Shown piece after piece: positions 18,436 to 43,616 of a DNA stretch of 64,000 nucleotides (positions are counted from its first letter, which is position 1; every line of letters begins with the position of its first letter). The position numbers and the translations under genes were made by a program. This DNA is from Candidatus Poribacteria bacterium (lineage in GTDB: Bacteria > Poribacteria > WGA-4E > WGA-3G). The DNA is taken from positions 1-64,000 of the forward strand of contig JAJDTM010000022.1 of the NCBI GenBank assembly GCA_022827185.1, given 5' to 3'. The notes beneath the pieces were generated by a model. It saw only the letters and a program-made list of their open reading frames with translations. It searched no databases and was not told the origin of the DNA.

Positions 18436-21400
18436 TCAAAGCATCCGAAAATAATCTTGGAGCGGTGTAACAGTAATATCTCCACGCTGTAGGGCGTCAA
18501 TAGCATTAACGGCTGCCGCTGCGCCGGGTATCGTGGAAAAAATCGGGATATCGTGTGCGATCGCCATTTCACGAATCAAGAGTTCATTCGGGCGGTGCAA
18601 GTCGCCAGTAGGCGTATTAATAATCAAGTCAACAGCGTGATTCTTGATATAATCGTGAATTGTCGGCCTTCCCTTTCCGATGCTAAAAACGAGTTCCGAC
18701 TCCATTCCATTGCGGAGCAGTACCTTCGCCGTTCCATGTGTAGCGATGAGCTCAAAACCCATATCCGTCAGTTTCTTAGCGATGAAGATAATCGCGCGTT
18801 TGTCTTTATTTTTAACACTGATGAAAACCTTACCACCGAGTGGTAAACTGTAACCACATGCTTTCTGTGCCTTCGCGAAGGCACGAGAGACATCAGTATC
18901 AATTCCCATGACCTCGCCCGTTGATTTCATTTCGGGACCCAAGCGCGTGTTTGAACCGGGAAAACGGTTAAACGGAAAAACGGGTGCCTTGACACTGAAA
19001 TAAGCAGGTTCAATCTCGCGCGTAAATCCGAGTTCATCAAGCGTCTTACCTGCCATCACGCGGGCAGCGAGTTTCGCCAAGGGGACACCGATCGCTTTGC
19101 TAACGAACGGAATCGTTCGAGATGCGCGTGGATTCACCTCAAGCACATAAATTTCATCGTTCTTTATCGCATATTGGACGTTCATCAGCCCGCGGACATG
19201 GAGTGCTTTCGCTAAGTCATAAGTGAAGATTTTGAGCTGCTCAATCTGTTCATCTACGAGTGTATAAGGTGGCAACACACAGTCGCTGTCCCCAGAATGG
19301 ATACCGGCTTCTTCAATGTGTTCCATGATACCACCGATAACGGTCAGATCTCCATCAGAGATCGCATCAACGTCTACTTCAATTGCCTCTTCAAGATATT
19401 TATCAATGAGTACAGGATGTTCCGGTGATGCTTCGACTGCGGTGTTCATATATTCGTGTAGGAGTTCTTCGTCGTAAACGATCTGCATGGCACGTCCGCC
19501 CAACACATACGAGGGGCGGACAATAACAGGATAACCGAGTGCGGCAGCAATCGGGGTAGCTTCCTCGCTCGAGGTCGCTGTTCCGTTCGGTGATTGCATT
19601 AACCCGATGTCATCCAATACTGCCTTAAAGAGTTGCCGATCTTCGGAGCGTGCTATATCTTCAGGACTTGTGCCGATTATCGGTACGCCCGCGGCTTTAA
19701 GCGCAACAGCGAGATTCAGGGGCGTCTGTCCACCAAACTGAACGATGACACCGGTAGGCTTCTCTTTGTGATAAATATTTAGAACATCTTCACGCGTCAA
19801 CGGTTCAAAATAGAGTCGATCAGAGGTGTCGTAATCGGTGCTAACAGTTTCAGGATTACTGTTCACCATGATGGTCTCATAACCATCGTCTTTGAGTGCA
19901 AGCGCGGCATGGACACAACAGTAATCAAATTCGATGCCTTGCCCGATCCGGTTGGGACCCCCACCAAGAATCATGATCTTCGGCTTATCAGAGGGACGCA
20001 CCTCATCTTCACTTGAACAGGTAGAATAGTAGTACGGTGTTTCTGCCTCAAACTCTGCGGCACAGGTATCGACGGTTTTGAACGTTGCCTCAATGCCGAG
20101 TTCTTGCCGACACTCACGGATAGCCTCTTCGGATACGTCGTAGATGTCCGCTAACTGTCGGTCAGAAAACCCAAATTGTTTTGCCTGATACAAGAGTCTT
20201 TTTGTGAAAACGCCATCTGTTCCACCGTTTTGTGGCGCGTGATTTGATACAATATCTTGTAGATGTTGTTTTATATGTTGTCGCGCATCCGATTCGGATA
20301 AAGCATTTTCAAAGTCAACTATTTCTTTCAAATTATAAAGAAAAAACGGGTCGATATGCGTGTAAGCATGAATTTCCTCAATGCTCATTCCACGCGCGAG
20401 TGCAGCTTTAATATAAAAAATCCGTTTGACATTAGGAATGCTGAGTTTACTCGGGAGTTCAGATAAAGGGAGTTCCTCAAGTGGGTGATTATCTAACCCA
20501 AACCATCCCGTCTCCAAGGACCTCAACCCCTTCTGTAACGCCTCTTTAAAGGTTCTACCGATAGCCATAGCCTCACCGACAGATTTCATCTGTGTTGTGA
20601 GTGTTTCATCGGTACCTTGGAACTTCTCAAACGCCCAGCGCGGGATTTTGACGACAACGTAATCAATTGTCGGTTCAAAGCAGGCAGGGGTCTCAGCGGT
20701 GATGTCGTTCGGAATTTCATCCAAGTTATAACCGACAGCGAGTTTCGCAGCGATTTTCGCGATTGGGAATCCCGTGGCTTTTGACGCAAGCGCAGAACTA
20801 CGAGAGACACGCGGGTTCATCTCAATAACGACCTGTTTACCTGTCTTCGGATCAACAGCAAATTGGATATTGGAACCACCCGTATCAACACCAATCTCGC
20901 GGATAATCTGAATCGCGGAATCCCGCATCAGTTGATATTCCTTGTCTGTCAATGTTTGGATAGGTGCGACGGTAATGCTATCACCCGTATGGACACCCAT
21001 GGCATCAACGTTTTCAATGGAACAGATGATGACGACATTGTCCGCACCATCGCGCATCACTTCTAACTCAAATTCCTTCCATCCGATGACGGATTCCTCA
21101 ATGAGCAATTCACTGATTGGGCTTAGAGCGAGACCTGTAGCGACCATCTTCTCGTATTCTTCGATGTTGTAAGCGATACCGCCACCTGTGCCACCGAGTG
21201 TAAATGCCGGACGGATAATCGCTGGAAAACCGATCTGATCGACAAGTGCAAGTGCCTCTTGCACAGTGTGTGCAATGCCACTCTGTGGGACCGCCAACCC
21301 GATTTTCGTCATTGCCGCTTTGAAGAGAGCGCGGTCCTCCGCTTTTTGGATGGCGGGCAATTTCGCACCGATCAGTTCAACCCCATATTTATCCAACGCA

Positions 21401-21717
21401 CCGGATTCCGCAAGTTCGACAGACACATTCAAGGCAGTTTGTCCACCGAGCGTCGGCAGCAACGCATCAGGACGTTCTTTTTCAAGCACAAGCTCCACTG
21501 TGTCCGCCGTTATCGGTTCAATATACGTCTGATCCGCGAAATCCGGATCCGTCATGATAGTGGCGGGGTTGCTGTTGACGAGGGTAATCTCGTACCCCTC
21601 CTCTTTCAGCGCTTTACACGCCTGCGTTCCTGAGTAATCGAACTCGCACGCTTGTCCAATGATAATCGCACCGGACCCTATAATTAAGATCTTTTCTATA
21701 TCTGTTCGCTTTGGCAT
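18436..21717 (-). CDS. carB: Carbamoyl-phosphate synthase large subunit
   Basis: [35 protein letters not shown]...; duplicated ATP-grasp halves. Confidence 0.98.
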
Positions 21718-21898: not shown

Positions 21899-23044
21899 CT
21901 AACGGCTTTCCGTATCCATCATTTCTGTAAAACGTGAAAAGAGATAACTCGCATCGTGCGGACCAGGAGATGCCTCTGGATGATACTGTACAGAAAAAAT
22001 GGGATACTCCCGATGCTGTATCCCTTCAAGTGTGTCATCATTTAGATTGATATGCGTAATATCAACGCTGTTCGGTAATGAATCAATATCAACGCAGAAT
22101 CCGTGGTTTTGTGAGGTAATCTCAACCTTGTCGGTTTCAAGATGCTTGACAGGTTGATTCGCCCCTCGATGTCCAAACTTCAGCTTGAAGGTTTTTCCAC
22201 CGAGGGCAAGCCCCAGGAGTTGGTGCCCCAAACAGATCCCGAAAAGCGGTTTTTTGTCCATCAAACCTCGGATCGTCTCAATCGCATAGCCAACTGGCAT
22301 CGGATCACCCGGACCGTTTGAAAGAAAAACGCCATCTGGCTCCGCAGCGAGAATCTCTTCTGCAGCTGTCTTTGCTGGTACAACTTGGACCTCGCAGCCG
22401 TGTTCAGTGAGTTGACGCAAGATATTATATTTAATGCCGAAATCAAGGGCGATGACTTTATGACTTTCGGCTTCCGGCTTTCGACTTTCAGCAAGGCGGT
22501 TTTCTGGCTGATGGCTGACGGCTGATGGCTGACGACTATTACGCCACGCATACGGATTTGGGCATGTTACACGTTGCACCAAATCCCAACCCACCAAGCC
22601 GTGCCATGCTTTGGCTTTCGCAACGAGGCTTTCAGGATTCAGGTCCTCCGTAGAGAGACACCCGTTCATCACGCCGTGAACTCGGAGACGGCGGGTGAGG
22701 GCGCGAGTATCAATCCCTTGTATACCAATGATACCGTGTTCGGAGAGGTAAGTATCTAAACTCCATTCTGAACGCCAATTGCTATGGTACGCGCTATATT
22801 CACGAACAACAAACCCTTCCACCTGCGGACCAATCGATTCAACGTCTGCTTCGTTGCAACCGTAATTACCGATCAAGGGATAGGTCATCGTAACGATTTG
22901 TCCTTTGTAGGAGGGATCGGTCAACACCTCTTGGTAACCCGTCATACTGGTATTGAAGACAACCTCACCGACGGTTTCGCCGGTCGCGCCAAACTGCTCA
23001 CCCTCAAAAACTGTTCCATCGGCTAATGCCAGAATCGCTTTCAT
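21899..23044 (-). CDS. carA: Carbamoyl-phosphate synthase small subunit, with a 27-aa repeat-derived linker insertion
   Basis: Start [88 protein letters not shown] insert. Confidence 0.96.
22457..22537 (-). repeat. In-frame repeat-derived segment inside carA
   Basis: AGTCGTCAGCCATCAGCCGTCAGCCATCAGCCAG...GAAAGTCGAAAGCCGGAAGCCGAAAGTCATAAA (coding strand), tandem AGCCRTC and GAAAGYC units. Confidence 0.75.
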
Positions 23045-24318
23045 ATTTTCTTTCCCTCTCGGAGTGTAATCGTTTGCCAACCTTTGAGTTCCCATCCTGT
23101 GAAAGGTGTGTTTCGGCTTTTTGAACGAGATTTTGTTACGTCAACCTGATTTATCGCGTCAACATCAATAACAGTAACGTCCCCAACAGCACCAACAGAG
23201 AGCGTCCCGCGATCAATACCGAGTATATTCGCTGGAATGGCGGTCATTTTTGCGATCGCTTCTGTCAAGGTCAGGTGTCCCGGTTGAACAAGATACGTCA
23301 ATACAAGCGGTAGACATGTCTCTAAACCGATAATTCCGTTAGGTGCATCAAGCATACCTTGTGCTTTTTCCGAAGGCGCGTGCGGCGCATGGTCGGTCGC
23401 GATGGCATCAATCGTTCCATCGCATAGCCCCTCAATAATAGCGTCAATATCGGTCTGTGTGCGGAGCGGTGGATGCATCTTGGCATTCGTTCCCTGTTTC
23501 TCAACTTCAGTATCCGTGAGAATCCAGTGGTGTGGACACACCTCAGCGGTTACATAAACGCCCCGTTTTTTCGCTTGACGGACCAATTCAACGGCACCCG
23601 CAGTGCTAACATGTAACACATGGAGATGTCCACCCGTCATCTCTGCCAACATAATATCGCGTGCGACGATGATGTCTTCTGCAGCGTTTGGGCTACCGAC
23701 AAGTCCCAACTTTCGGGAAGTCTCTCCCAAATTCATGACGGCACCGGCGTTAAGGTTATGCTCTTCGCAGTGAACCATGATCGGAAAACCGAGCTCTGCG
23801 CTCAATGCAAGCGCGTCGCGCATAAGCGCGGCATTCATGACAGTAACACCGTCATCACTGAAACCGATTGCCCCTGCGGAACGCATCCCACGCATATCCG
23901 TCAGTTCTTCACCCGCGAGGTCTTTCGTGATACTACCGAAGGGGAACACATTCGTCTTCGCAGTCTTATCCGCGATGTCGTAAATCTGCGCAATCTTTTC
24001 AGGCGTGTCTATCACCGGTGACGTGTTTGCCATGCAAGCGACAGATGTGAATCCGCCCGCCGCTGCCGCCGCTGTGCCGGTAGCGATTGTCTCCTTATGC
24101 GCAAACCCAGGTTCACGGAGGTGGACATGCATATCGATTAAGCCCGGTGCAACAATCATCCCTGTCGCATCATATACATCGGTGTTTTGAAGCTCAGTTA
24201 ACGCTTCCTCACCGCCGACTTTGGTGATCTTGCCATCGGTAATAGAGAGATTCCCAATCTCATCAATATTATTACCCGGATCGATAATATGTCCCTTAAT
24301 GATACACGCGTCGCTCAT
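23041..24318 (-). CDS. pyrC: Dihydroorotase
   Basis: [45 protein letters not shown] overlap with carA. Confidence 0.95.
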
Positions 24319-24869
24319 TCACCCTCCCTTTCGTAAATGGTCGCTGAATCTACGCCACCTTCTTCGGCAAGTCGTACCCGAACAAATTCTCTTCGGGAGG
24401 TGGGTACATTTTTGCCTACGTAATCAGCGGCAATCGGCAACTCGCGATGGCCTCTGTCGATTAGCGTCGCCAATTGAATTGCAGCCGGACGGCCGAAATC
24501 CATGAGTGCGTCCATTGCCGCGCGAACCGTACGTCCCGTATAGAGGACTTCGTCTACTAAGATAACCCACTTGCCAGTAATGTCAAACGGTAGTTCGGTA
24601 CTACTAACCTGAATCTGCGTCTCACGGAGGTTAATATCGTCTCGATAGAGCGTGACATCAATGGCACCAACATTGACTTCTATCTCTTCGATACGTTCAA
24701 GGTTCTCAGCGATGCGGTGTGCAATAAAATCACCTCTACTTTTAACCCCGACAAGTACGAGTTCTTCAATGTGTTTATGATTCTGCTCTAAAATTTCGTG
24801 AGCGATTCTGAGCAAAGCGCGACGAATCTCTTCGACGTTCATGACTTGTGCTTTTTCACGCATTTCCAT
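24315..24869 (-). CDS. pyrR: Bifunctional pyr operon regulator/uracil phosphoribosyltransferase PyrR
   Basis: [79 protein letters not shown]. Confidence 0.95.
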
Positions 24870-24898
24870 TGTTTTGTTCCGTGAGATATCTTAATAAT

Positions 24899-24934
24899 AA
24901 AAAAGCCTCCCCCGTCTAAAGTGACGAGAAAGGC
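24899..24934 (-). terminator. Rho-independent attenuator upstream of pyrR
   Basis: Minus strand GCCTTTCTCGTC ACTTTA GACGGGGGAGGC followed by TTTTTT. Confidence 0.85.
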
Positions 24935-24998
24935 ATCATCCAATAAATTCCGATGGACAGTCTAAATTTTGGCTCCGATTCAAATTGTGGTCTTGCAT

Positions 24999-25033
24999 CC
25001 TTTTTTCAACCTCTCTGGATTGGATTAAAAAGG
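24999..25033 (-). promoter_or_regulatory. PyrR-binding RNA hairpin
   Basis: Minus strand CCTTTTTAATCCAATCCAGAGAGGTTGAAAAAAGG: AAUCCAGAGAGGUU matches the known PyrR recognition loop, on a CCUUUUU/AAAAAGG stem. Confidence 0.85.
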
Positions 25034-25063
25034 TTTTAACACGAACGCTCCATTTATCTTTAT

Positions 25064-25092
25064 ATTATACCATATTTGTGCATTAATTGCAA
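25064..25092 (-). promoter_or_regulatory. pyr operon promoter
   Basis: Minus strand TTGCAA-17 bp-TATAAT. Confidence 0.65.
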
Positions 25093-25151: not shown

Positions 25152-25757
25152 CTAAACCTTTTGCTCTATCATGCTTGCGAGGATGCCGAGAATTTTATCG
25201 CACTGCGCGATTTGGTAGACTGTTATATCAATAGACAAGTGATTTTCTTTCAATTTAAGGAATTTCCACTCTGTCCCTGTCGTAGCAGCTCCATAAACGC
25301 AAGGAATATCATTCCCTTTTTCAGCATTGAAACGTTGCGCCGCGAGCATCTCAGCGACGCACTGCCCGAGACCGGGGGCGGGATCTTCCTTCTTCGCTTC
25401 AACAAGTACGATAACAGGTGCCCGCAAAAGAGATTGCATCGGCGATAGGCTTATTAAGAAATCGCATACCCCTGTCAATCCATTTTCCGGATCAACATTA
25501 AAGTCAATGCCAGAAAAGAGACTAATGCGACGCTCAAATTTCTCGCGGAGTTCAATCAGAACATTGGCGACAATCAGTTCAGAACGTGCTTTTTCCGTAT
25601 TTACGGCGGCAGCCACAGGGACTTTTTTTTCTAACTCCACCATTAGTTCCGCACTTGGTGCTATGGGGTCTATGTTAGCAAAAATGTCTACAGATTCAAC
25701 AGTTTCCAATTGAAATGTTGTCAATACCTCTTCTAATGTAAAATTGCTATACGCCAT
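25152..25757 (-). CDS. PD-(D/E)XK nuclease-like protein (paralog 1)
   Basis: Start MAYSNFTLEEV; E (EKARSELIVANVLIEL), D (GVCDFLIS), EAKK (VLVEAKKE), Q (QCVAEMLAAQ) motif order. Confidence 0.6.
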   Translation of the reverse strand: MAYSNFTLEEVLTTFQLETVESVDIFANIDPIAPSAELMVELEKKVPVAAAVNTEKARSELIVANVLIELREKFERRISLFSGIDFNVDPENGLTGVCDFLISLSPMQSLLRAPVIVLVEAKKEDPAPGLGQCVAEMLAAQRFNAEKGNDIPCVYGAATTGTEWKFLKLKENHLSIDITVYQIAQCDKILGILASMIEQKV

Positions 25758-26053
25758 TGCTGAAACCTCCTTTCCCAAAAAACTGAAATAATGGTCTTGC
25801 TTTCGTGTGTTCAATTCTATCTACGGAAACGTGAATGTTCCAATCCTGATTCAGATAGCAACAGGTTTAGGTCTCTCAACTGAGATTTTTTGCCGCATTT
25901 CGCGAACTTCTTCTATTACACTGCATTCCATAATTTAAAAATTCTCAAATTCTATAAACATGTCGCCCCGCTGGGGTTGATTCGATCTGTGGAATGTTTG
26001 TACGATTCATCGGTCCCTCCAGGGTCTATATTGAAAGTGCTTCTTCACGGACC

Positions 26054-26659
26054 TTATACCTTTTGCTCTACCATACTCACGAGGATACCGAGGATTTTGT
26101 CGCACTGCCCAATAGAATAAAATTCTTTATCAATATAGAGTTGCTGTCCTTCTAATTTAAGGAATTGCCATACTGTGCCCGTAGTAGCAGCCCCATAAAT
26201 GCAAGGGATTTCATTTCCTTTTTCGATATTAAAACGTTGTGCGGCAAGCATTTCTGCCACACATTGCCCAAAACCAGTCGTCGGTTCATCCTTCTTTGCT
26301 TCAACAAGGACAATGATAGGTGCCTCCAAATAAAATTGCGTAGGCGAGTGACTAATCAAGAAATCGCACACACCCGTCAACCCGTTTTCCACATCAACGT
26401 TGAAATCTATACCTGAAAATAGACTGATACGCCGTGTGAAGTACTCACGGAGTTCAATAAGAACACTGGCGACAATCATTTCTGATTTCGCTTTCTCTGT
26501 CCCTATAGCAACAGCTAACGGCACATTGCGCGCCAATGTCGTAATGAGATACTCACTCGGTGGCACAGGCTCTATGCCCGAAGAAATGTCTGCGGCTTCA
26601 TCAGCCTCCAGCTGAAATGTCTTGCGAACTGTTTCTAAGGTGAAATTGCTATATGCCAT
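26054..26659 (-). CDS. PD-(D/E)XK nuclease-like protein (paralog 2)
   Basis: Strong similarity to 25152..25757 along its full length; same E/D/EAKK/Q motifs. Confidence 0.6.
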   Translation of the reverse strand: MAYSNFTLETVRKTFQLEADEAADISSGIEPVPPSEYLITTLARNVPLAVAIGTEKAKSEMIVASVLIELREYFTRRISLFSGIDFNVDVENGLTGVCDFLISHSPTQFYLEAPIIVLVEAKKDEPTTGFGQCVAEMLAAQRFNIEKGNEIPCIYGAATTGTVWQFLKLEGQQLYIDKEFYSIGQCDKILGILVSMVEQKV

Positions 26660-40370: not shown

Positions 40371-41243
40371 ATGAAAGATTGGTGCTACGCGTTTGCTGCC
40401 AAATTGGTCGGGTTTTGCGTGTCTCGATTGCCGCGCGGTATAACATTAGTTATTGGCGGAGGGTTGGGAACACTCGCTTTTTGGCTTGCACCGCAACAGA
40501 GAGAACTGGCATGCGATCACCTACGGCGCAGCTTGACGCTTTCAGATGAACGTCGTGTCAGAACAATTGCCAAACAATGCTTTCAACACCTCGGCAAAAC
40601 TGTCGTAGAGTTCATGCAGTTTCCGCGCTTAGATAGAGCGCAAATTCAACGATATGTCACTTTTGAAGGCGTTGAGCATGTCGAGCAGGCACTCGCACAC
40701 GGGAAAGGCGCGATTATTTTAACAGGGCATTTCGGGAATTGGGAACTTCTCGCTGCCAGTATTTCTGCCACAGTTGCCCCGCTGACGCCGATCGTTCGTG
40801 AATTGCGTTCTCCGCGTTTAAATGCATTAGTCTCGCGTTACCGAGAGAAAGCAGGGTATGCCACCATTGACCGAGATACAGGGATACGTCAAGCACTTCA
40901 GTGTCTTAGACGCAATGAACTGCTTGGCATCGTCGCCGATGTTGATACGACTGTGAGCGGTGTTTTCGTCGATTTTTTCGGCAGACGCGCCTATACGCCC
41001 TATAGCCCAGTCGCTATTGCCCTCAAGACAGGGGCAACAATACTACCGACGTTTATTATTCGTCAACCCGATGGTTCACATCGCGCAATTATTGAATCAC
41101 CTCTGGCGTTGAAACGGACAGACACAAAAGAGAAAGACCTTGTTATCAATACACAGAAATTCACGAAAATTATTGAATCTTATATCCGGCAATATCCAGC
41201 ACAATGGATTTGGATGCATCGACGGTGGAAAACAGAGAATTAG
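40371..41243 (+). CDS. Lysophospholipid/lipid A acyltransferase (LpxL/HtrB family)
   Basis: GAIILTGHFGNWELLAASIS, DVDTTVSGVFVDFFGRRAYTPYSPVAIALKTGATILPTF, QYPAQWIWMHRRWKTE. Confidence 0.93.
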   Translation: MKDWCYAFAAKLVGFCVSRLPRGITLVIGGGLGTLAFWLAPQQRELACDHLRRSLTLSDERRVRTIAKQCFQHLGKTVVEFMQFPRLDRAQIQRYVTFEGVEHVEQALAHGKGAIILTGHFGNWELLAASISATVAPLTPIVRELRSPRLNALVSRYREKAGYATIDRDTGIRQALQCLRRNELLGIVADVDTTVSGVFVDFFGRRAYTPYSPVAIALKTGATILPTFIIRQPDGSHRAIIESPLALKRTDTKEKDLVINTQKFTKIIESYIRQYPAQWIWMHRRWKTEN

Positions 41244-41814
41244 TCCCGTTTTCATAGGATTGTTTTTCTGTTTGCTGTTCGGTGTAACATGTTGCAAAAG
41301 CACAGAAACACCGGTCAGTGCAACGGACGAAGGTATAGAAGCAGTTCCAAAGCAAAAACTCGATGGGTTTTCCACACAACACACCGAAGCAGGTGTCCTC
41401 AAATGGACGCTTATCGGTGATACTTCAACATTTCACGGAAGTTATGTTGAAGTGGAAAATCCGACTGTTCAGATTTTTGAAAATGGTGTTGTTTCTATCA
41501 CTTTCAATAGCGAGACAGGCAAACAATTTCTCAATGGCACTAAGAGGAACAATCTTCACCTGACAGGGAATGTTGTCGGTGTCAGTAAAGATGGTAAACT
41601 CTTCACTGAGACACTCCATTGGCAGAACCTCGCAGGTAGATTGTATGCACCCGATGAAGCAACAGTCGTGCGTGGAGACTCTACCTGGACAGGAACGGAA
41701 ATGTTCGCGAATCCGACGCTTGAAACCGTGAAGATGAAAAATAATGAATTTACACTTTACCCAAAAGACGAGAAAGCACATGAATATCATAATACCTCCA
41801 TTGAACCAGAGTAG
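41140..41814 (+). CDS. lptC: LPS export ABC transporter periplasmic protein LptC (true start uncertain, overlaps the lpxL 3' end)
   Basis: Hydrophobic N-terminus; GVLKWTLIGDTSTFHGSYVEVENPTVQIFENG; syntenic with lptA-lptB. Confidence 0.75.
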   Translation: MLSIHRNSRKLLNLISGNIQHNGFGCIDGGKQRISPVFIGLFFCLLFGVTCCKSTETPVSATDEGIEAVPKQKLDGFSTQHTEAGVLKWTLIGDTSTFHGSYVEVENPTVQIFENGVVSITFNSETGKQFLNGTKRNNLHLTGNVVGVSKDGKLFTETLHWQNLAGRLYAPDEATVVRGDSTWTGTEMFANPTLETVKMKNNEFTLYPKDEKAHEYHNTSIEPE

Positions 41815-42700
41815 ACGTAATCGCGGGTCTCAACGCTGCAAACTCTGTGCGTCCATCGGATTCCTCGCGTTTCTGACCTTCCTGATTTCTGCAACTGTCG
41901 TTGCTGAAGATACGAAACCGCCAGCGACCAATACGGTAGAGACACAAACAACAGAAAACACCGCCCAAAAGGCGGATACCGCCGAAAATACGGATATCAC
42001 GTCAGAAATGCCGAAAGAAAAGATCACCGGCACCGCAGATAAAATGGAAAGATATGATAAGGACGGTATAACAATCCTTATCGGCAATGCCAAGACAATG
42101 CGGTATAATGAACAGGATATTGAAATCGGGTTTCTCAACGCCGACAAAATCACCCTCAAAGCCGACCCAGAAACTGGAACAACAACCGAAATTGTCGCTG
42201 AGGGGAATGTAGAAATCCGAGACCAAGACATCTTTGCTACCTGCGACCATGCCATTATGAATAATCTGACGAATATCATTACCCTTAAAGAGAACGTTGT
42301 CGTCTTACAAAACAAGGACAGACTCGAAACCAAACTTTTCACTTTCAATCGGACGACCGGAAAACAGACCGGCGAAGGGGGCGTTAAATTTAAGGTTACT
42401 GTTACACAGGCGGCACCGGTAAATACAGAAACTGATGAGAACACCGAAAACGGCGCGGACGCCGGTGAAGAAAAACCCGACACAACTGCTCCTGAGAAAA
42501 CAGAAGATAACACCGAAAAAAACCCAGACACCGAAACCGACAGTGCTGACGGCGAAGCGGAAGATAAACCCGATGCAGATGCCGAAAACTCCGAAGATGC
42601 GGATTCAAAACCAGAAGAAACGGATACAGATGCCGAGAATCCCGATGACGCGGATGACACCGACGCGAACGATGAAACAGAAGCATCCGAGAACGATTAG
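41780..42700 (+). CDS. lptA: LptA/OstA-like LPS transport protein with a long acidic C-terminal tail
   Basis: ITGTADKMERYDKDGITILIGNAKTMRYNEQDIEIGFLNADKITLKAD.TTTEIVAEGNVEIRDQDIFATCDHA; tail about 90 aa rich in D/E/T/P/N/A. Confidence 0.85.
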   Translation: MNIIIPPLNQSRRNRGSQRCKLCASIGFLAFLTFLISATVVAEDTKPPATNTVETQTTENTAQKADTAENTDITSEMPKEKITGTADKMERYDKDGITILIGNAKTMRYNEQDIEIGFLNADKITLKADPETGTTTEIVAEGNVEIRDQDIFATCDHAIMNNLTNIITLKENVVVLQNKDRLETKLFTFNRTTGKQTGEGGVKFKVTVTQAAPVNTETDENTENGADAGEEKPDTTAPEKTEDNTEKNPDTETDSADGEAEDKPDADAENSEDADSKPEETDTDAENPDDADDTDANDETEASEND

Positions 42701-42875: not shown

Positions 42876-43616
42876 GTGGCAACAGAATTACAAGCACACA
42901 GACTCGTAAAACGCTATACAAGAAACGGTCCAATCGTTGTTAACGAAGTGAGTCTATCGGTACAGCAGGGTGAAGTCGTTGGTCTGCTTGGTCCCAATGG
43001 TGCTGGCAAATCAACAACGTTCTACATGGTCGTAGGCTTAATCCGCCCGAATGCAGGTAGGATTACGTATGACGATAAAGACATCACCTTCTATCCGATG
43101 TATAAGCGGGCACGGCTCGGCATCGGTTATCTCGCACAAGAGACATCAATCTTTCGTAAACTGACGGTTCAACAGAACATTGAGGCGATTCTTGAGGCAC
43201 AAAGGATACCTAAATCTGAACGCGGCGTTCGTATCCGTGAACTGACAGACGAACTTGGCATTTCAAACTTGCTACCTCGCAAAGCATACACGCTATCTGG
43301 TGGTGAGTGCCGCCGAGCAGAGATCGCACGCGCGCTCGCAGCACAACCAGATTTTATTTTGCTGGATGAACCACTTTCTGGAATCGATCCGATTGCAGTC
43401 GCAGACATTAAGCAACTCATCCTGCATTTACGGGACCGCAATCTCGGTGTGCTCATCACGGACCACAATGCTGCCGAAACTCTCGATATCGTAGACAGAG
43501 CCTACATCATCGTGGATGGAAAGATCACTCTCGCTGGAACACCTACAGAACTCGTCAACAACGAAACCGCAAGAGATCTCTATTTTGGACACAATTTCTC
43601 CTATCGGGTAGAATAG
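42876..43616 (+). CDS. lptB: LPS export ABC transporter ATP-binding protein LptB (GTG start)
   Basis: LLGPNGAGKSTTFYMVVGLIRPNAGRITYDDKDITFYPMYKRARLGIGYLAQETSIFRKLTV. Confidence 0.96.
   Translation: MATELQAHRLVKRYTRNGPIVVNEVSLSVQQGEVVGLLGPNGAGKSTTFYMVVGLIRPNAGRITYDDKDITFYPMYKRARLGIGYLAQETSIFRKLTVQQNIEAILEAQRIPKSERGVRIRELTDELGISNLLPRKAYTLSGGECRRAEIARALAAQPDFILLDEPLSGIDPIAVADIKQLILHLRDRNLGVLITDHNAAETLDIVDRAYIIVDGKITLAGTPTELVNNETARDLYFGHNFSYRVE

Follow-up and report, generated by a model that had tools for sequence, protein, structure and literature searches.

PyrR is the textbook case of RNA-only attenuation and is best known in Firmicutes. Another arrangement reportedly occurs in the pyr leader of Thermus strain ZO5, for which Van de Casteele et al. 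are said to have proposed in 1997 that a translating ribosome prevents formation of the terminator, without an antiterminator. Translational repression by PyrR is ascribed to Mycobacterium smegmatis in the part of PMC13328217 that cites Fields and Switzer (2007). The PyrR motif is a moderately distributed RNA motif (PMC3766115), and a PyrR box outside Firmicutes is therefore not new in itself. A literature search found no paper connecting Poribacteria or Omnitrophota with PyrR. The pyr leader described here is a genuine PyrR attenuator in a diderm bacterium; its sensor part is an ordinary member of the Rfam family RF00515, and its output part is a leader-ORF variant.

The leader was analysed in a stretch of 64,000 nucleotides (the window) from a metagenome-assembled genome of Candidatus Poribacteria, a group of uncultured sponge bacteria; the assembly comprises 6.1 Mb in 65 contigs. 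A promoter, a PyrR hairpin and a GC-rich terminator with a T6 tract had been proposed upstream of pyrR by an earlier, sequence-only reading, and all were located on the minus strand. The sigma-70-type promoter, TTGCAA-17-TATAAT (25064–25092), matches the consensus at 10 of 12 positions and has a TG before the −10 element; the same promoter is seen upstream of an N-gap in a relative (L018). The predicted PyrR-binding hairpin, CCTTTTTAATCCAATCCAGAGAGGTTGAAAAAAGG (24999–25033), has a stem CAAUC/GGUUG, a lower stem CCUUUUU/AAAAAGG and the hexaloop CAGAGA (25017-25012). An intrinsic terminator, composed of GCCUUUCUCGUC-ACUUUA-GACGGGGGAGGC and U6 (24899–24934), has a 12-bp stem with a folding energy of −18.8 kcal/mol and is conserved in relatives. 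Between the hairpin and the terminator lies a short minus-strand ORF (24998-24936) encoding MQDHNLNRSQNLDCPSEFIG, with its TGA 1 base before the terminator, which the sequence-only reading had omitted from its account of the window.

The leader is followed on the minus strand by pyrR-pyrC-carA-carB, and family-profile matches bear out the gene order given previously. The pyrR gene (24315–24869) encodes a bifunctional pyr regulator and uracil phosphoribosyltransferase (NF003549, 234 bits, cut-off 138), pyrC (23041–24318) a dihydroorotase (TIGR00857, 423 bits, cut-off 279), carA (21899–23095) the small subunit of carbamoyl-phosphate synthase (TIGR01368, 516 bits, cut-off 307) and carB (18436–21717) the large subunit (TIGR01369, 1513 bits, cut-off 1027). 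The true start of carA is probably near 23044, as the family match begins at residue 18–20. The PyrR match is at equivalog level, and each of the closest solved structures is itself a PyrR (Thermus 1ufr and 1non among them). Upstream of the operon, two tandem paralogous ORFs on the minus strand (25152-25814 and 26054-26659) have no Pfam or NCBIfam match. The window also contains lpxL-like (40371-41243), lptC (41140-41814), lptA-like (41744-42700) and lptB (42876-43616; TIGR04406, 340 bits, cut-off 240) genes; the diderm context with LPS-type export, suggested earlier from these genes, is thus correct.

The RF00515 element spans 24896–25036 on the minus strand and is matched over the full length of the model (1–115) with an E-value of 1e-6. 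Its score of 53.4 bits lies 0.6 bit below the gathering score of 54 bits, so that a default Rfam scan returns no match, a threshold effect, and the element was found once an E-value threshold was used. Homologous leaders of 26 relatives score above this cut-off, and the element is assigned to the PyrR-binding family. In 21 diverse Poribacteria hairpins, the upper stem of five pairs comprises 97.1% standard pairs and shows 17 two-sided changes, and the hairpin covariation score is 0.606; shuffles give 0.309, and slid controls do not exceed 0.142. Nearly all Poribacteria hairpins carry the hexaloop CNGNGA, enclosed by a covarying stem, as is typical of RF00515. In Omnitrophota hairpins (L197-L245), the pair closing the hexaloop is C-G, U-A or G-C, and the loop remains CNGNGA.

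PyrR is present in 80 of the 85 Poribacteria genomes, including all of the good ones (56/56), and an RF00515 match was found in 72 of the 85, above the cut-off in 26. After those of Poribacteria, the PyrRs most similar to that of the window are mostly from Omnitrophota, where the RF00515 element occurs in 80/117 genomes. Seven Omnitrophota loci cut at contig ends, with coordinates that did not fit, were left out. Among Bacillota, used as a control, it occurs in 82/101 genomes; two Bacillota searches that sampled identical genomes are counted once. Thermus composti, one of the control genomes, also has an RF00515 match. A pattern scan of viral contigs found no control leaders.

The second PyrR box that the sequence-only reading had raised as a possibility before pyrB was not found in the source genome, which has a single RF00515 match; upstream of pyrB, where a pyrD-like gene ends, no motif rises above chance. 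An apparent second box in another genome (L003, G049:C117) was rejected as an assembly artefact, in which the two boxes flank an N-gap and the leader and the first pyrR codons are repeated. A missing leader in one genome (G061) corresponds to an N-gap, and in G030 and G046, where the leader is also missing, a transposase-like sequence lies between the leader and pyrR. In two relatives (L077, L078), the leader position and pyrR have between them a transposase-like sequence, by eye resembling IS200/IS605 OrfB, which would cut the operon off from its attenuator.

In the window, the leader ORF (ATG CAA GAC ... GGA TGA) begins at 24998, directly 3′ of the hairpin strand AAAAAAGG. Its frame is preserved across the phylum. 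The count, made by hand from a table, covers 64 Poribacteria leaders that have a start codon (ATG, otherwise GTG or TTG) and in which a terminator was called; 62 of them keep this frame open as far as the terminator, compared with 4 and 24 for the two alternative frames. The ORF thus runs from the PyrR site to, or into, the terminator, the layout expected of a Thermus-type leader. Within the genus of the window, exactly 1 nt usually separates the stop codon from the terminator that follows, and a 12-nt deletion leaves the frame intact; in six leaders of the genus (L011, L017, L029, L030, L065, L066), the stop at the terminator foot is lost and the ORF enters or crosses the terminator. The rest of the family has linkers of 95–274 nt with a median pairwise identity of 47%, and here the frame is open in 13/15 leaders, the other two stopping 5–7 nt early, with the other frames open in 1/15 and 0/15. 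Dinucleotide shuffles of these leaders remain open in 0.3–8% of cases per leader (38% in one case). The product of the shuffle probabilities over 14 leaders, including the two that stop early, is ~6e-23, and ~1e-19 without those two. These values assume independent leaders; at such low identity the assumption is acceptable, though only approximate. Codon-level selection on the leader peptide was not found in the genus, where the peptide is not conserved (pN/pS of 0.99). The case for the leader therefore rests on the open frame rather than on the peptide, and it is translation, not its product, that would matter.

The leaders of Omnitrophota have the same layout. An ATG is present behind the hairpin in 30/34, in most of them 4–9 nt after an AAGG that is Shine–Dalgarno-like and lies inside the hairpin, at a spacing normal for a Shine–Dalgarno sequence; the four leaders without an ATG have a GTG 3–7 nt after the hairpin. 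The leader frame is open in 25/27, and the other frames in 4/27 and 9/27. In some Omnitrophota genomes (L206) the ORF passes through the terminator and extends over the start codon of pyrR. In the Bacillota control, an ATG occurs in only 8/27 leaders, at scattered positions (Fisher p of 3e-10 against Poribacteria and Omnitrophota together).

A further layout occurs at L102 and L107. No terminator is present there, and the hairpin lies immediately ahead of the first gene's start codon, an arrangement compatible with control at the level of translation initiation. The first gene in both is an HD_3/YfbR-like nucleotidase. A gene for such a 5′-nucleotidase lies between the leader and pyrR throughout the other Poribacteria families of the class (L089-L109, for example G022:C39:38717-39145) and is absent from the family of the window.

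In almost every relative a leader ORF bridges the hairpin and the terminator, which points to ribosome-mediated control. Judging from sequence comparisons, we consider it likely that the leader is a PyrR-controlled attenuator of pyrR-pyrC-carA-carB that uses a translating ribosome as its readout, rather than an RNA antiterminator. At low UMP, a ribosome would initiate at the AUG abutting the PyrR hairpin and translate the leader ORF as far as the terminator foot, and with the ribosome on the 5′ arm of the terminator, RNA polymerase would read through; a ribosome whose translation ended at 24936 would shield the greater part of this arm. At high UMP, PyrR–UMP would clamp the hairpin that holds the ribosome-binding purines (GAGAGG or AAAAAAGG), the leader ORF would stay untranslated, the terminator would fold and transcription would stop. 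Binding of PyrR and UMP, translation of the ORF and the effect of the ribosome on termination are the steps that we infer. In the family of the window, the ATG abuts AAAAAAGG with zero spacing, and the Shine–Dalgarno sequence would therefore be the GAGG of the loop, 10–11 nt upstream. Counted against this mechanism are the contact between the ATG and AAAAAAGG, the unconserved peptide, the lost stop codons, a 10-bp duplex that can form between the loop and the terminator, and the Ala or Ser at the position of Arg146 in PyrR discussed below.

The sequence-only reading had implied the Bacillus mechanism, in which the hairpin region would pair with the 5′ arm of the terminator as an antiterminator, and the hairpin stabilised by PyrR–UMP would serve as the anti-antiterminator; on this view the ORF would be incidental. 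The RF00515 architecture speaks for it, and the loop AGAGAGG can pair with CCUUUCU of the terminator arm. In the window, antiterminator pairing is indeed possible, as the strongest duplex that upstream sequence can form with the 5′ arm of the terminator, at the loop GAGAGG, reaches −10.3 kcal/mol, compared with −18.8 kcal/mol for the terminator, but it is of chance strength (z of 0.1 against shuffled upstream sequence). The best duplex mostly falls on the loop and is strong in two leaders (L079, z of −3.9; L100, z of −4.8), yet the mean z over 67 Poribacteria leaders is −0.33, compared with −1.20 for Bacillota in a similar test. In a common test, the mean antiterminator z is −0.45 in Poribacteria, +0.15 in Omnitrophota and −1.20 in Bacillota, with median ratios of duplex to terminator energy of 0.60, 0.52 and 0.80, respectively. 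Moreover, the pairing does not track changes in the loop: the A to C changes in L007 and L011 have no matching change in the terminator arm. No antiterminator is conserved among these leaders, and it may not be what evolution kept in Poribacteria. The Bacillus mechanism, which also leaves the preserved open frame unexplained, is thus an unlikely account of this locus. Less probable again is a combination of a weak antiterminator with leader translation, by which control would be partly RNA-only and partly ribosome-mediated; the same leaders do contain both the ORF and the complementarity (~60% of the terminator energy), but this complementarity is at chance in most of them and absent in Omnitrophota (z of 0.15).

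A different possibility is that PyrR acts solely as a uracil phosphoribosyltransferase, with a leader that is either a relic or an attenuator working constitutively. It draws on the residue equivalent to Arg146 of Bacillus subtilis PyrR, a position which we take to be implicated in RNA binding. This residue is Ala or Ser in all of the Poribacteria PyrRs scored (57/57) and Arg or Lys in Bacillota and Omnitrophota, save for one Gln outside Poribacteria. The RNA itself argues the other way, as compensatory changes accompany the retention of the hairpin throughout the phylum, its hexaloop is nearly invariant, and it lies nearly always beside pyrR or a nucleotidase–pyrR pair. We regard a purely enzymatic PyrR as highly improbable.

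Readout by a ribosome on the leader ORF therefore remains the preferred explanation. The comparisons suggest that in two large uncultured diderm groups the same pair of PyrR and RNA would be read out by a ribosome engaged in translating a leader peptide, extending PyrR control to Poribacteria and Omnitrophota. More tentatively, and with somewhat more doubt than confidence, ribosome-coupled leader ORFs may be a widespread mode by which PyrR regulates genes in diderm phyla generally (Poribacteria, Omnitrophota and Thermus), with one element serving interchangeable outputs. Within Poribacteria the output would convert between leader-ORF attenuation and direct occlusion of the start of the first gene, and the Bacillus antiterminator would be a Bacillota-specific alternative.

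The closest relative among known systems is the leader of Thermus ZO5, which reportedly also has a PyrR box, a leader ORF and a terminator before pyrR. The idea of a leader ORF is accordingly not new in principle. The Thermus case is one sequence from another phylum, whereas ~100 leaders from two candidate phyla are considered here, and the operon of the window is pyrR-pyrC-carA-carB, without pyrB; if the proposed mechanism is true, a single-sequence proposal would become a phylum-wide pattern with natural variants. The leader resembles M. smegmatis, as far as the cited account of PyrR hairpins occluding a ribosome-binding site goes, in the layout of L102 and L107 before the first gene; unlike in that account, the start that would be occluded in the window is that of the leader ORF, with a terminator downstream. 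With the attenuators of B. subtilis and B. caldolyticus the locus shares PyrR, a hairpin with a CNGNGA hexaloop, a terminator and a pyr operon. Bacillota often have 2–4 PyrR boxes per genome, compared with usually one here, and in place of the antiterminator of Bacillus-type leaders, which is not conserved here, there is a leader ORF.
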